Below, one piece after another: positions 11,959-19,520 of a stretch of 37,241 nt of DNA. Position 1 is the first letter of the stretch, and the number at the start of each line of letters is the position of its first letter. The position numbers and the translations under genes were made by a program. The notes beneath the pieces were generated by a model. It did not search any database, had not been told where the DNA came from, and saw only the letters and a program-made list of their open reading frames with translations. Source of the DNA: Rhizomicrobium sp. (GTDB lineage Bacteria > Pseudomonadota > Alphaproteobacteria > Micropepsales > Micropepsaceae); contig JANWJQ010000131.1 in assembly GCA_025451875.1 (NCBI GenBank), positions 1 through 37,241 on the forward strand, in the 5' to 3' direction.

Positions 11959-13718
<1,760 letters not shown>

Positions 13719-13917
13719 GGAAATCCCCCAAAGTTCCCTGCGGGATATTACTCCAGCCGCGGCCCGCAGAAAGCCCACGTCAAGGCCTTGCGAGGTCTGC
13801 GAAACGGCGCGAGCATCATGGCGCTTAAGCGGGGCGCGTGACGCCGCCCAACGCCTTGGGAAAGAAGACGCCCGCCGCGCCTCGTACCCCGACCGATCCG
13901 GGGTAATGGAGGCGACT

Positions 13918-15951
13918 ATGTCCAAAAAAACTGGAGGAGTGGGGCCACGTGCAGTGGCCCTCGTGGGACCTTATGGCAGCGGAAAGACGACGCTGCTCGA
14001 ATCCATTCTTTCCGTCACAGGCGCGGTGCAGCGCAAAGGCTCTATCGCGCAGAAGAACACAGTGGGCGACTCCAGCGCCGAGGCGCGCACGCGGCAGATG
14101 AGCGTGGAAGTGAATTGCGCCAGCACGAAATATCTGGATGAAAGCTTCACCTTCCTGGATTGCCCCGGCTCCATCGAATTTCTCGCCGACACGCTGAACG
14201 TGCTTCCTGGCATCGACGCCGCCGTCGTGGTGTGCGAGCCGGAGCCGGCGAAGATTCAAATGTTGCAGCCTTATCTGAAGCGGCTGGACGATCTGAACAT
14301 TCCGCACTTTGTTTTCATCAACAAGATCGACAAAGCGAGCGGTGCGGTCCGCGATCTGCTCGGGCAGTTGCAGGACGTCAGCGCCAAGCCGCTGCTGATG
14401 CGCCAGATTCCGATTGCGGAAGGCGGGCAGGTGAAGGGTTTTGTCGATCTCGCGCTGGAGCGCGCGTTCCAATATGCGCCGCACGCCGAATCCAAAGTCA
14501 TCGAGCTTGGCCTGCTGGCCGATGCGGAGAAGCAGGCACGCTTCGCGATGCTGGAGAAGCTCGCCGATTATGACGAACACCTGATGGAGGAACTTCTCTC
14601 CGATCAGGAGCCGCCGCGCGATGAAGTCTTTGCCGATCTGTCGAAGGAGTTGGCGGACGGGCTTGTGGTGCCGGTGCTGCTCGGCTCAGCCGACGGGGAC
14701 AACGGCATTCGCCGGCTGCTGAAAGCGCTGCGCCATGAAGTGCCGGATGTCGCTGCGGCCGCGAGCCGTATCGGGATCAAACCCGGAAGCGACGCTGTCG
14801 TGCAGATTTTGAAAACCTACAATGGCGCACACGGCAAGCTTTCGCTGGCGCGCGTGATGGCAGGTTCGCTGAAGGACGGCGCGGTGCTGCATGGCCGCGG
14901 CGGCGATGCGCGCGTGGGCGGCCTGTTCGCGCTGAAAGGCGAAACGCAGAGCAAGCTCGCCGAAGCAAAGGCAGGCGATACGGTGGCCCTTGGGCGACTG
15001 GAAGGCATCTTCACGGGTGAAACATTGTCCGCCGCCAAAATAGCGTTGCCACGCGTGGAGATCGAAGAACTGCCGGTCGTCTATGGCTTCGCGATCGAGA
15101 CCACGGACCGCAAGGACGAAGTGAAGCTCACCGCCGCCATCCACAAATTGCAGGAAGAAGACCCGTCACTGCATTTCAAACAGGACGCAGACCTGCATGA
15201 GATGACGTTGTTGGGGCAGGGCGAGATCCATCTGAAGGTCGCGGTGGAAAAGCTGCAGAGCAAATATGGCCTGAAGATCGTCACCCATCCGCCCAAGACC
15301 CCGTACAAGGAAACGATCCGCAAGCCGGCGAAACAGCATGGCCGCCACAAGCGCCAATCGGGCGGACATGGCCAGTTCGGCGATGTGCATATCGAGATCA
15401 AGCCGCTGCCGCGTGGGACGGGCTTTGCCTTTCAGGATCAGATCAAGGGCGGTGTCGTGCCGCGCCAATTCATCCCGTCGGTGGAGAAAGGCGTCATCGA
15501 ATATCTGAAGCACGGGCCGCTCGGTTTCCCCGTGGTGGATGTCGGCGTGGCGCTGGTGGACGGCTCGTTCCACAGCGTCGATTCATCAGATGCCGCGTTC
15601 CAGACGGCAGCGCGTATCGCGATGAGCGAAGGCATGCCCAATTGCGCGCCAGTACTGCTGGAGCCGATCATGCGGGTGAAGATTCATGTTCCCAACGACG
15701 CCACATCGAAGGCCAACCAGGTGGTGAGCGGGCGGCGCGGGCAGTTGATGGGTTATGACGCGCGTGGCGGCTGGAAGGGCTGGGACACGGTGGAAGCGCA
15801 GATGCCGCTGTCAGAATTGCACGATCTCATCATCGACCTGCGCTCGCTCACGCAGGGCGTCGGCACGTTCGAGATGGAGTTCGATCATCTGGCCGAGTTG
15901 AGCGGCAAGCTGGCCGAACAGGTCGTGGCGACGCACAAGGTCGCGGCATAG
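13918..15951 (+). CDS. Elongation factor G-like translational GTPase
   Basis: The 677-aa product has the five-domain EF-G architecture: G domain with P-loop GPYGSGKTTL (17-26), D81-C-P-G84-S, NKID (about 135-138); domain II; domain III (LGQGEIHLKVAVEKLQ); domain IV (HKRQSGGHGQFGDVHIEI); domain V (ending FDHLAELSGKLAEQVV). The start at 13918 has GGAGG 5 nt upstream, so the long open frame before it is not coding. In classical EF-G the switch II motif is DTPGH, whose His triggers GTP hydrolysis; here it is DCPGS. This marks the EF-G-like paralog group rather than the main fusA, which would lie in a str operon. It stands alone, without rpsL, rpsG or tuf. Ribosome role is unproven. Confidence 0.88.
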   Translation: MSKKTGGVGPRAVALVGPYGSGKTTLLESILSVTGAVQRKGSIAQKNTVGDSSAEARTRQMSVEVNCASTKYLDESFTFLDCPGSIEFLADTLNVLPGIDAAVVVCEPEPAKIQMLQPYLKRLDDLNIPHFVFINKIDKASGAVRDLLGQLQDVSAKPLLMRQIPIAEGGQVKGFVDLALERAFQYAPHAESKVIELGLLADAEKQARFAMLEKLADYDEHLMEELLSDQEPPRDEVFADLSKELADGLVVPVLLGSADGDNGIRRLLKALRHEVPDVAAAASRIGIKPGSDAVVQILKTYNGAHGKLSLARVMAGSLKDGAVLHGRGGDARVGGLFALKGETQSKLAEAKAGDTVALGRLEGIFTGETLSAAKIALPRVEIEELPVVYGFAIETTDRKDEVKLTAAIHKLQEEDPSLHFKQDADLHEMTLLGQGEIHLKVAVEKLQSKYGLKIVTHPPKTPYKETIRKPAKQHGRHKRQSGGHGQFGDVHIEIKPLPRGTGFAFQDQIKGGVVPRQFIPSVEKGVIEYLKHGPLGFPVVDVGVALVDGSFHSVDSSDAAFQTAARIAMSEGMPNCAPVLLEPIMRVKIHVPNDATSKANQVVSGRRGQLMGYDARGGWKGWDTVEAQMPLSELHDLIIDLRSLTQGVGTFEMEFDHLAELSGKLAEQVVATHKVAA

Positions 15952-16854
15952 TCAGAGCGTTGCAGCGCCGAAGGTGTCGCAATCGCCCATTTCGCCGCGT
16001 TGAAGGCCGCGTTGGAACCAGCGCATGCGTTGTGCGCTGGTGCCGTGCGTGAAGGAGTCGGGAACGACGGTGCCTTGCGTCTGCTTCTCCAGCGTATCGT
16101 CGCCAACGGCGGCGGCAGCGCGCAGACCGCCTTCCACATCGCCATTCTGCAAGATGTGGAAGCGCTGATCGGCGTGATAAGTCCACACGCCGGCATAACA
16201 GTCGGCCTGCAATTCCAGGCGCACGGAAGCGCCGGTCGCGCCGCGCGCGCTGGAGCCCTGCAATTGCGATTCATGCTGGTCCATCGTGCCGACCAGATTC
16301 TGGATGTGATGGCCGTATTCATGCGCGATCACATAAGCCTGCGCGAATTGCCCCGGTGCGCCGAACTGATCGGCAAGCTGGTTGAAGAAGGACAGGTCCA
16401 GATAGATGCGCTTGTCGTTCGGGCAATAGAACGGCCCGGCGGACGACTGGCCTTCGCCGCACGCCGTTGGCGTGTCCTGCGTGTAGAAGGTGATGGTCGC
16501 GGGCGAGAACGTCACGCCGCGCGCCTGCAGGATTGGTGTCCACACATCTTCCGCGGAGCCGACGATCTTGCGCGCGAAATCCAGTTGCGCGTCATCGGTG
16601 TGATTGTCGGCCTGCGCGATCTGTTGCTGGCCGCCGCCGCCGAGAACGCTGTCCAGAAGTCCTCCGCCGCCATTCGATCCGAACAGCAGAACCAGGATGA
16701 TGAAGCCGACAAAACCCAAACCGCCGCCGCGCATGCCGAAAGCAGGAAGGCCGCCGAAACCGCCGCCCCAGCTGGGGCCTCCGAAACCGCCAAATCCGCC
16801 TTCGCCGCGCCGGTCGTCGAAATTGCTGGTTTCCCGCAGATTGTTCAGGTCCAT
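15952..16854 (-). CDS. Neutral zinc metallopeptidase, YpfJ-like
   Basis: The 300-aa product has a glycine-rich N terminus (FGGFGGPSWGGGFGG, about 21-35) and a single membrane segment (GLGFVGFIILVLLFG, 45-59). The zinc-peptidase domain that follows carries H178-E-Y-G-H182-H in VIAHEYGHHIQ. Two cysteine-containing segments (TACGEGQSSAGPFYCP) and the downstream LELQADCYAGVW, with the third ligand region, are characteristic of the putative neutral zinc metallopeptidase family. It is a membrane-anchored enzyme with the catalytic domain probably in the periplasm. No substrate is known. It abuts the EF-G-like gene with zero bases between stops and diverges from dps over about 90 bp. Confidence 0.92.
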   Translation of the reverse strand: MDLNNLRETSNFDDRRGEGGFGGFGGPSWGGGFGGLPAFGMRGGGLGFVGFIILVLLFGSNGGGGLLDSVLGGGGQQQIAQADNHTDDAQLDFARKIVGSAEDVWTPILQARGVTFSPATITFYTQDTPTACGEGQSSAGPFYCPNDKRIYLDLSFFNQLADQFGAPGQFAQAYVIAHEYGHHIQNLVGTMDQHESQLQGSSARGATGASVRLELQADCYAGVWTYHADQRFHILQNGDVEGGLRAAAAVGDDTLEKQTQGTVVPDSFTHGTSAQRMRWFQRGLQRGEMGDCDTFGAATL

Positions 16855-17421: not shown

Positions 17422-17460
17422 AAAAAAATCACCCGGAGCAGGGGGGCTGCTCCGGGTGAT
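17422..17460 (-). terminator. Strong intrinsic terminator, minus strand
   Basis: ATCACCCGGAGCA (17428-17440) pairs perfectly with TGCTCCGGGTGAT (17448-17460) around a 7-nt loop, GCCCCCC on the minus strand. The minus strand continues into seven T residues (17428-17422); the plus strand has no T-run. It therefore ends minus-strand transcripts, either lysR read-through or the small RNA proposed here. Confidence 0.88.
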
Positions 17461-17559
17461 AGTCGTCAACTTGGAGGCTTCCGCTTCAAAGGGGGATAAG
17501 AAGCAAAAGCCGTTGAGGGCGAACCCTCTTGCCGCTCTCCAGGGGGAGGAGAAGCGACA
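17422..17559 (-). ncRNA. Candidate small RNA with C-rich (anti-Shine-Dalgarno) loops
   Basis: This is inferred from promoter, structure and terminator; no database family was matched. From a start near 17559 the RNA of about 138 nt would contain four hairpins. Hairpin 1 is UCUCC/GGAGA with loop UCCCCCU (17552-17536). Hairpin 2 is GAGGG-UUCG-CCCUC (17528-17515). Hairpin 3 is GCUUC/GAAGC with loop UUAUCCCCCUUU (17504-17483). The last is the terminator, with loop GCCCCCC. A further CCUCC (17477-17473) is unpaired. Alphaproteobacterial stress RNAs such as the Rhodobacter CcsR set and rhizobial alpha-r14 RNAs carry CCUCC-type loop motifs, some under RpoH control. A 291-aa open frame across this strand has no coding support. 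Confidence 0.55.
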
Positions 17560-17565
17560 CCCCTG

Positions 17566-17593
17566 ATTTGGGGTTGGTGGCCGCTGTTTCAAG
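17566..17593 (-). promoter_or_regulatory. Sigma-32 (RpoH)-like promoter of the small RNA
   Basis: Read on the minus strand: CTTGAAA (17593-17587), 13 nt, CCCCAAAT (17573-17566). The heat-shock consensus I recall is CTTGAAA, 11-16 nt, CCCCATnT, so only one defined position differs. Transcription would begin about 17559, just before the first C-rich hairpin. Confidence 0.55.
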
Positions 17594-17627: not shown

Positions 17628-18518
17628 CTAGAAAGTCCACTCCTTCGCGGCTTTCACAAGGAAGTCGCGGAAGGCCGCCACGCGCTTGGATTGGCGCAGC
17701 GCGTCGCAATAGACCAGATGCACGTCGAAGGCGGGGCCTTCCGTGTCGGGCAGCACGCGCACCAGATTGGGACGATCCGCCGCGATGTAGTCCGGCAGCG
17801 CCGCAACGCCCACGCCTGCTTCCGTCGCATGCAGGATGCCTGTGAGATTGTTGATGCGCAGCGCGCGGTAGCCATCGGGCGAAATCTTGCGCACTGCGTC
17901 GATCAACCAGTTCACGTCGCGAATTTCTGGCGCGGCGCTTTCGCCATAAGCGACAAGCGTGTGCTTGGTCAGATCGCCGAAATTCTGCGGCGTTCCGGCC
18001 TTGGCCAGATATTTCTGGTCCGCATAGAGATGATAGTGGACCGTGAACAGCTTGCGCTGGATGAGATCGGCCTGCACCGGTGCGCGCATGCGGATGGCGA
18101 TGTCGGCTTCGCGCTGCGCCAGATCCAGCTCGCGATCCTCGAACACCAGATGCACCTGCAGCTCGGGGAATTCCACGAGGAAGGACTCGATGCGCGGCAG
18201 CACCCAATAGGTGCCAAGGCCATGACTGGTAGTGATCTTCAGCGAACCGCGGGGCGCGGACTGCGCGTTCTTGAGCGCTTCTTCGGCTTGTCCGAGGCGC
18301 GAAAGCACATCGCTCACCGCGAGGAAGAGCAATTCCCCTTCATCGGTCAGCGTGAGCCCGCGCGCATGGCGCTGAAACAGCGGCGTGGTGATTTCTTCTT
18401 CCAGCGCGCTGATCTGGCGGCTGACGGCCGATTGGCTCAGCGTCAGCATCTGTCCGGCATGTGTGAAACTTCCAGCGGATGCGACCGCGTGGAATATGCG
18501 CAACTTGTCCCAATCCAT
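17628..18518 (-). CDS. LysR family transcriptional regulator
   Basis: The 296-aa product has the N-terminal winged helix-turn-helix (MDWDKLRIFHAVASAGSFTHAGQ; LSQSAVSRQISALEEEI in the recognition region) and a C-terminal periplasmic-binding-like effector domain. The effector domain shows VEFPELQVHLVF, LAQREADIAIRM, GVGVAALPDYIAAD and a tail VAAFRDFLVKAAKEW, which is the standard LysR length. It binds DNA as a tetramer, with an unknown co-inducer. It lies 30 bp downstream of trxB on the same strand, so co-transcription is likely, and there is no divergent target gene of the usual LysR type. Its target could be the trxB promoter or a remote locus. Confidence 0.92.
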   Translation of the reverse strand: MDWDKLRIFHAVASAGSFTHAGQMLTLSQSAVSRQISALEEEITTPLFQRHARGLTLTDEGELLFLAVSDVLSRLGQAEEALKNAQSAPRGSLKITTSHGLGTYWVLPRIESFLVEFPELQVHLVFEDRELDLAQREADIAIRMRAPVQADLIQRKLFTVHYHLYADQKYLAKAGTPQNFGDLTKHTLVAYGESAAPEIRDVNWLIDAVRKISPDGYRALRINNLTGILHATEAGVGVAALPDYIAADRPNLVRVLPDTEGPAFDVHLVYCDALRQSKRVAAFRDFLVKAAKEWTF

Positions 18519-18548: not shown

Positions 18549-19490
18549 CTAGTGACCTCCGGCCAGAAACCTCTCCGCTTCCAACGCCGCCATGCAGCCC
18601 ATGCCGGCAGCCGTGACGGCCTGCCGGAATATCTTGTCCTTCACATCGCCCGCGGCGAACACGCCGGGTACGCTCGTCTTCGTCGAATCCGGCGCGGTCT
18701 TGATATAGCCGTCGTCGTCCATCTCGACCTGCCCGCGAAACAGCTCCGTCGCCGGCGAATGGCCGATCGCGATGAACAATCCATCCACGTCGAGCTGTTG
18801 CGACGTGCCTTCCGAAAGATTGCGCAGCTTGATCGCGGTCACGCCGCGCGGGTTGTCAGTACCGACAACCTCATCGACAACCGAATCATAAATTATTTCG
18901 ATTTTCGGATTCTCGATAAGGCGCATCTGATTGGTCTTGTCCGCACGCAGGGTTGGCCGGCGATGGATGAGCGTTACCTTGTCGGCGAAATTTGTCAGGA
19001 AAAGGGCTTCCTCGGCGGCTGTGTTTCCGCCGCCGACAACCGCAACGCGTTTGCCGCGATAGAAGAACCCATCGCAGGTCGCGCAGGCCGACACGCCGAA
19101 GCCCTTGAACTTCTCCTCGGTCGCAAGTCCCAGCCAATTGGCGCTGGCGCCGGTGGCGATGATGAGCGTCTCGGCGATGTAGCGGTCGCCCGAGTCGGCA
19201 ACCAAGGTAAACGGACGTTTGGCAAGATCGGCGGAGACGATGATGTCCTGCACCAGCTTGGTGCCGACATGCTCGGCCTGCGCCTGCATCTGCTCCATGA
19301 GCCACGGGCCCTGGATGGCTTCCGCGAAGCCCGGATAGTTTTCGACTTCGGTGGTGATGGTGAGTTGACCGCCCGGCTGAATGCCCGCGATCATCGTCGG
19401 CTCCAGCATCGCGCGCGCGGCATAAATCGCCGCCGTAGCGCCCGCGGGACCGCTGCCCAGAATCACAACTTTTGAATGGATATCGGCCAT
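18549..19490 (-). CDS. trxB: Thioredoxin reductase (NADPH)
   Basis: The 313-aa product passes electrons from NADPH through FAD to thioredoxin. The FAD site is VVILGSGPAGATAAIYAARA (8-27), the redox disulfide is C136-A-T-C139-D, and the NADPH site is VAVVGGGNTAAEEALFL (about 149-165). The C-terminal FAD segment is GVFAAGDVKDKIFRQAVTAAGMGC. Length and motif order are those of bacterial low-molecular-weight TrxB. ATG at 19490 with GGAAG upstream is preferred over the in-frame GTG-type start at 19520, which would abut the preceding gene. The order on the minus strand is ELM1-like, trxB, lysR, with 30-bp gaps. Confidence 0.97.
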   Translation of the reverse strand: MADIHSKVVILGSGPAGATAAIYAARAMLEPTMIAGIQPGGQLTITTEVENYPGFAEAIQGPWLMEQMQAQAEHVGTKLVQDIIVSADLAKRPFTLVADSGDRYIAETLIIATGASANWLGLATEEKFKGFGVSACATCDGFFYRGKRVAVVGGGNTAAEEALFLTNFADKVTLIHRRPTLRADKTNQMRLIENPKIEIIYDSVVDEVVGTDNPRGVTAIKLRNLSEGTSQQLDVDGLFIAIGHSPATELFRGQVEMDDDGYIKTAPDSTKTSVPGVFAAGDVKDKIFRQAVTAAGMGCMAALEAERFLAGGH

Positions 19491-19520
19491 GGCGCTTCCG
19501 TGGGTAAACGGGACGCGCAA

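Follow-up and report, generated by a model that had tools for sequence, protein, structure and literature searches.

The DNA that follows lysR on the minus strand of this Rhizomicrobium contig raises the question of whether it encodes an RNA of its own and, if so, what switches that RNA on and where it stands among the known alphaproteobacterial small RNAs (sRNAs). In the window, meaning the whole 37,241-nt stretch that was analysed, we identified a real and previously uncatalogued sRNA gene, which begins ~70 nt past the lysR stop codon. We consider it probable that this is a genuine trans-acting sRNA of ~139 nt with its own RpoH promoter and terminator, sitting in the position after trxB-lsrB, induced by stress and blocking Shine-Dalgarno (SD) regions with its C-rich loops. 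The features of the locus are as follows.

18549–19520, minus strand: trxB, thioredoxin-disulfide reductase (TIGR01292, 397.8 bits).
17628–18518, minus strand: lysR, regulator of the LsrB/VtlR type, immediately upstream of the sRNA gene (PDB 9HH1).
17588–17593, minus strand: promoter −35 element CTTGAA, RpoH-type (TTGAA in 45/45 genus promoters; first-ranked by position weight matrix, PWM).
17566–17572, minus strand: promoter −10 element CCCAAAT after a spacer of 15 (CCCAAAT also in the sister species; clpB-like).
17422–17560, minus strand: sRNA gene, ~139 nt, its start placed from promoter spacing and its end at the T tract.
17530–17559, minus strand: hairpin 1 with the C-rich loop UCCCCCU at 17547–17541 (from the fold; relatives have an equivalent GUCGC...CCCCC...GCGAC hairpin).
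17515–17528, minus strand: extra small hairpin, GAGGGUUCGCCCUC (not in sister L136, the closest relative).
17476–17511, minus strand: hairpin 2 with the loop UUAUCCCCCUUU at 17499–17488 (same loop in sister L136).
17473–17477, minus strand: linker CCUCC, anti-SD-like and partly paired in the fold ensemble.
17422–17460, minus strand: intrinsic terminator with a stem of 13–14 bp, the C-rich loop CCCCC at 17446–17442 and T7 at 17428–17422.

A direct reading of the sequence bears out the coordinates and the description of promoter, hairpins and terminator given in a first-pass annotation of this DNA: the promoter reported there as CTTGAAA-N13-CCCCAAAT corresponds to CTTGAA at 17593–17588 plus CCCAAAT at 17572–17566, the C-rich loops UCCCCCU, UUAUCCCCCUUU and CCCCC are present, and the reported 13-bp terminator stem with seven T residues is found at 13–14 bp with T7. 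The linker CCUCC, described as unpaired, is also there, but it is only ~41% unpaired in the ensemble, partly belonging to the second stem, at its base; the C run in the loop of hairpin 2 has an unpaired probability of 1.0. The RNA folds with a minimum free energy of −72.1 kcal/mol (z −6.97), which none of 200 shuffles equalled, and it contains three hairpin loops with a run of at least four C, whereas 400 dinucleotide shuffles had 0.40 such loops on average and in no case as many as three. The extra hairpin GAGGGUUCGCCCUC is a lineage-specific insertion, as it is missing from the sister species. A GTG reading frame of 24 codons that begins where the RNA is predicted to start (17560–17486, minus strand) is not kept as a frame in relatives.

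Plain DNA similarity searching returned no relatives above chance, because the primary sequence diverges too fast, and a genome-wide RF02344 scan with tighter filtering failed to recover even the window site, so we built our own covariance models, locating the locus in other genomes via relatives of lysR. Many congeners have a C-rich-loop RNA downstream of that gene. Model R1 was made from 13 RNAs with four to five hairpins and model R2 from 8 short RNAs, with the window and its sister left out of both, and each picked out exactly the sRNA site in the window (35.9 bits, E 4.3e-6 for R1; 30.8 bits, E 1.8e-4 for R2). In a set of 69 congeneric genomes the RNA mostly occurs as a single copy, and it lies on the same strand within 2.5 kb downstream of lysR in 43 of the 63 that have lysR (42 by position parsing, plus G078, which comes from a smaller search only). 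Hits within 174 nt of lysR number 31, and three more genomes have the RNA 6–12 kb downstream on the same strand; a linked copy went undetected in 20/63, where some contigs end early and stricter filters drop weak hits. Outside the genus, R2 had no match among 240 genomes sampled across the class. R1 has a second, weak match in the genome that the window comes from, beyond the window itself (G000:C54:4121-4225, minus strand; 28.2 bits, E 0.003), which may be a paralogue or chance.

The predicted stems covary. In the R1 (type A) alignment, 16 of 35 base pairs have both sides changed, compared with 6.2 in shuffles (0/500 as many) and 2–4 in slid-partner controls; the terminator helix has a counterpart in the type A alignment A2, with 100% of cells paired and 3 pairs double-changed, and hairpin 1 of type B is imperfectly aligned, its covariation being weak evidence. 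Having run the comparison that the first-pass annotation had proposed, looking for relatives without the promoter or the C-rich loops, we found promoter, loops and terminator conserved across the genus.

The flanking genes are conserved to different degrees. The only PDB match of the lysR product at E<=1e-30 is 9HH1, the structure of A. tumefaciens LsrB (E 1.2e-86), and lysR has trxB as its neighbour in 59 of 61 loci of the genus and in 78 of 80 across the class. By contrast, dps lies beside lysR in only 3 of the 61 genus loci (the window, its sister and one other), so that of the dps-lysR-trxB setting first described, lysR and trxB are the conserved neighbours and dps is incidental. Elsewhere in the window are a YpfJ-type neutral zinc metallopeptidase (15952–16854, minus strand; NF050010, 326.8 bits) and a 787-aa open reading frame (13588–15951, plus strand) that looks by eye, from its translation, like an elongation factor G paralogue.

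Next, we asked which sigma factor would transcribe the sRNA. All 45 promoters extracted from the genus have (C/A/G)TTGAA as the −35 element, followed at a spacing of 15 (33 promoters) or 16 (12) by a −10 element that is mostly CCTATCT, CCTATTT or CCCATTT; the extraction searched for TTGAA, which partly conditions the −35 composition, but neither the fixed spacing nor the −10. By a PWM from which the window and its sister were excluded, the window site ranks first over both strands of the 37 kb, at 15.1 bits vs 11.2 for the next. In its −10 element, CCCAAAT, an A stands where 42 of 43 other sRNA promoters have T, and together with its sister it is the weakest of the set. The clpB promoters of the genus tolerate other bases at this position; clpB is a classical heat-shock gene, and CTTG-N17/18-CCCANAT occurs upstream of it in 23 of 30 genus genomes, compared with 0/26 for groES and 0/981 random stretches. 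These clpB promoters back the earlier heat-shock reading, and clpB is a good control for RpoH in this genus whereas groES, with CIRCE and a sigma70-like promoter, is a poor one. Upstream of groES (L256–L284) we observed a CIRCE-like inverted repeat, GGCACTC...GAGTGCTGCC, along with the sigma70-like promoter, which suggests that groES in the genus is under HrcA rather than RpoH control. The sRNA promoters of the genus are also close to the RpoH1 consensus of Sinorhizobium meliloti, CTTGAA-N16-CCTATAT, which drives AbcR2 (PMC8844928).

Transcription from a housekeeping sigma70 promoter instead is unlikely: many relatives can be read as having a sigma70-like site, TTGAA-N17-TAT(C/T)T(C), but the form seen at groES, CTTGAC-N16-18-(C)TA(A/T)AT, is present in 14/26 of those promoters and in 0/45 of the sRNA promoters, which have GAA and not GAC in the −35 element and a C-rich −10 as in clpB, and the sigma70 −10 of the window would be very poor (AAATCA). 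The sRNA is thus most likely driven by RpoH, and the conserved promoter suggests that the heat-shock sigma factor, rather than LsrB, switches it on. At the thresholds used, the genome encodes one RpoH and one Hfq. Distant loci show no strong enrichment of RpoH-like promoters after lysR (4 in 53 kb). In a Rhodospirillales metagenome-assembled genome (MAG; L103), an RpoH-like promoter (19 bits) lies 92 nt after lysR, upstream of a SorX-like sequence, possibly an independent case of RpoH control at the trxB-lysR locus.

With RpoH as the probable activator, heat, oxidative or stationary-phase stress would raise RpoH, the sRNA would accumulate, and its C-rich loops would pair, probably with Hfq, with the G-rich SD regions of several mRNAs, blocking their translation. 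We infer such anti-SD silencing from the relatives AbcR and NfeR1. A search for targets of the form AAGGGGGA-N-ATG returned 11 places vs 1 in the reversed control, several of them unconvincing as genes, and the set showed no functional theme and nothing coherent. The C-rich loops could instead sequester G-rich sRNAs in the manner of a sponge, or bind protein, rather than pairing with mRNA SD regions; in Caulobacter, the sponge RNA CrfA, which is G/A-rich, pairs with the C/U-rich anti-SD seed of SisA (PMC12559287). We regard a sponge or protein-binding role as improbable, given that the closest studied relatives by position or structure, AbcR and NfeR1, silence mRNAs via anti-SD motifs.

Pairing with mRNA SD regions is thus the function we favour. 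The RNA stands near several described families, none of which it matches outright. At gathering thresholds, Rfam gave no match in the whole window; at loose thresholds the best was ar14 (RF02344; 32.2 bits, E 5e-4, cut-off 58.8), followed by sX13 and anti-hemB, and neither ar15 (RF02345; gathering 40 bits) nor SorX (RF02784; gathering 46.6 bits) matched the window at E<=10. The sRNA might accordingly be read as a diverged alpha-r14 (NfeR1-type) RNA, ar14 being its best Rfam match and both having three hairpins with C-rich unpaired loops, and NfeR1 is tied to LsrB by regulation (PMC10746234). We give this little credence: 32.2 bits is far below the cut-off, the motif CCUCCUCCC that defines alpha-r14 by its presence in all three loops (PMC10746234) is in none of UCCCCCU, UUAUCCCCCUUU and CCCCC, and the NfeR1 promoter is of another class, sigma70 with an LsrB box rather than RpoH.

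That the segment is merely the 3′ UTR of lysR with its intrinsic terminator, the C-rich stems arising by chance, is very improbable, since despite its place ~70 nt past the lysR stop and the strong terminator at its end, it is separated from lysR by a promoter that is conserved in 45/45 loci, 12 RNA hits follow an extra 0.5–2.4 kb (the extracted ones with the same promoter), and the upstream hairpins covary too.

An sRNA gene with its own promoter therefore remains the preferred reading, and its position has a well-described parallel: Rhizobiales have AbcR1/AbcR2 at this spot, and Agrobacterium and Sinorhizobium have the gene order trxB-vtlR-abcR1-abcR2 (PMC7486931, PMC8844928). In other orders, we found Rfam matches to ar15 or SorX after this lysR, many below the gathering score; at this locus in Pleomorphomonas (L074), ar15 scores 44.3 bits. 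The genus model R1 matches several of these ar15/SorX spots, which may be convergence, C-rich loops and a GC terminator being generic. The sRNA may descend from AbcR or may have replaced it at the same place, the distinction being blurred by possible cross-reaction of models through C-rich loops and terminators. Two Sneathiella genomes and a related MAG (L058, L059, L067) have tandem arrays of three SorX-like RNAs each, following trxB-lysR at ~150–750 nt after lysR, and the copies read carry CCUCCCUGUUAGACUUGCC and a terminator.

The LsrB box is TGCA-N6-GCAT (PMC10746234), and a dyad resembling it, of the type ATGC-N7-GCAT, is present in 34 of 62 distant loci vs 6.8 after shuffling, and, vs 4.1, in 9 of the 32 genus loci in which the RNA comes directly after lysR, where its place is not conserved. 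We tentatively propose, at somewhat less than even confidence, that trxB-lsrB-sRNA forms a module found across the class, whose sRNA changes in sequence while keeping its position and its C-rich anti-SD loops, with control here rewired from LsrB to the heat-shock sigma factor and an AbcR2-like RNA alone left. Such a locus, retaining an sRNA through changes of promoter type and sequence, offers a good test case for regulon rewiring, redox (LsrB) vs heat shock (RpoH). Present in ~50 genomes of one genus, this uncatalogued RNA would join the alphaproteobacterial anti-SD sRNAs, linked through its position to AbcR, and relatives of AbcR control both nutrient uptake and virulence.

Among the known systems, the Rhodobacter cuckoo RNAs CcsR1–4 are RpoH-dependent stress RNAs with C-rich loops. 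They are processed from the ccaF1 (DUF1127) mRNA (PMC10253847), whereas the sRNA has its own promoter and lysR, not a DUF1127 gene, upstream. SorX is RpoH-controlled in Rhodobacter (PMC8307010); its matches in Sneathiella, Oceanibacterium and others fall at the trxB-lysR position that the sRNA occupies here, but the window has none at E<=10. AbcR1 and AbcR2 share the position after trxB-lsrB/vtlR and are likewise ~115–140 nt long, with three stem-loops and C/U-rich anti-SD motifs (PMC8844928, PMC7486931, PMC7143759); the sRNA differs in being single copy rather than tandem, in its longer pure C runs and in having no ar15 match. AbcR1 has an LsrB box with sigma70, whereas no such box is conserved here, and AbcR2 of S. 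meliloti has an RpoH-type promoter (PMC8844928), like the sRNA. The comparison with CcsR and alpha-r14 drawn in the first-pass annotation thus holds for the alpha-r14-like loops, while the counterpart at this locus is AbcR (alpha-r15). Judged on these sequence comparisons, the sRNA is the counterpart of AbcR2 by position and promoter, resembles alpha-r14 in its loops, and is neither by sequence.
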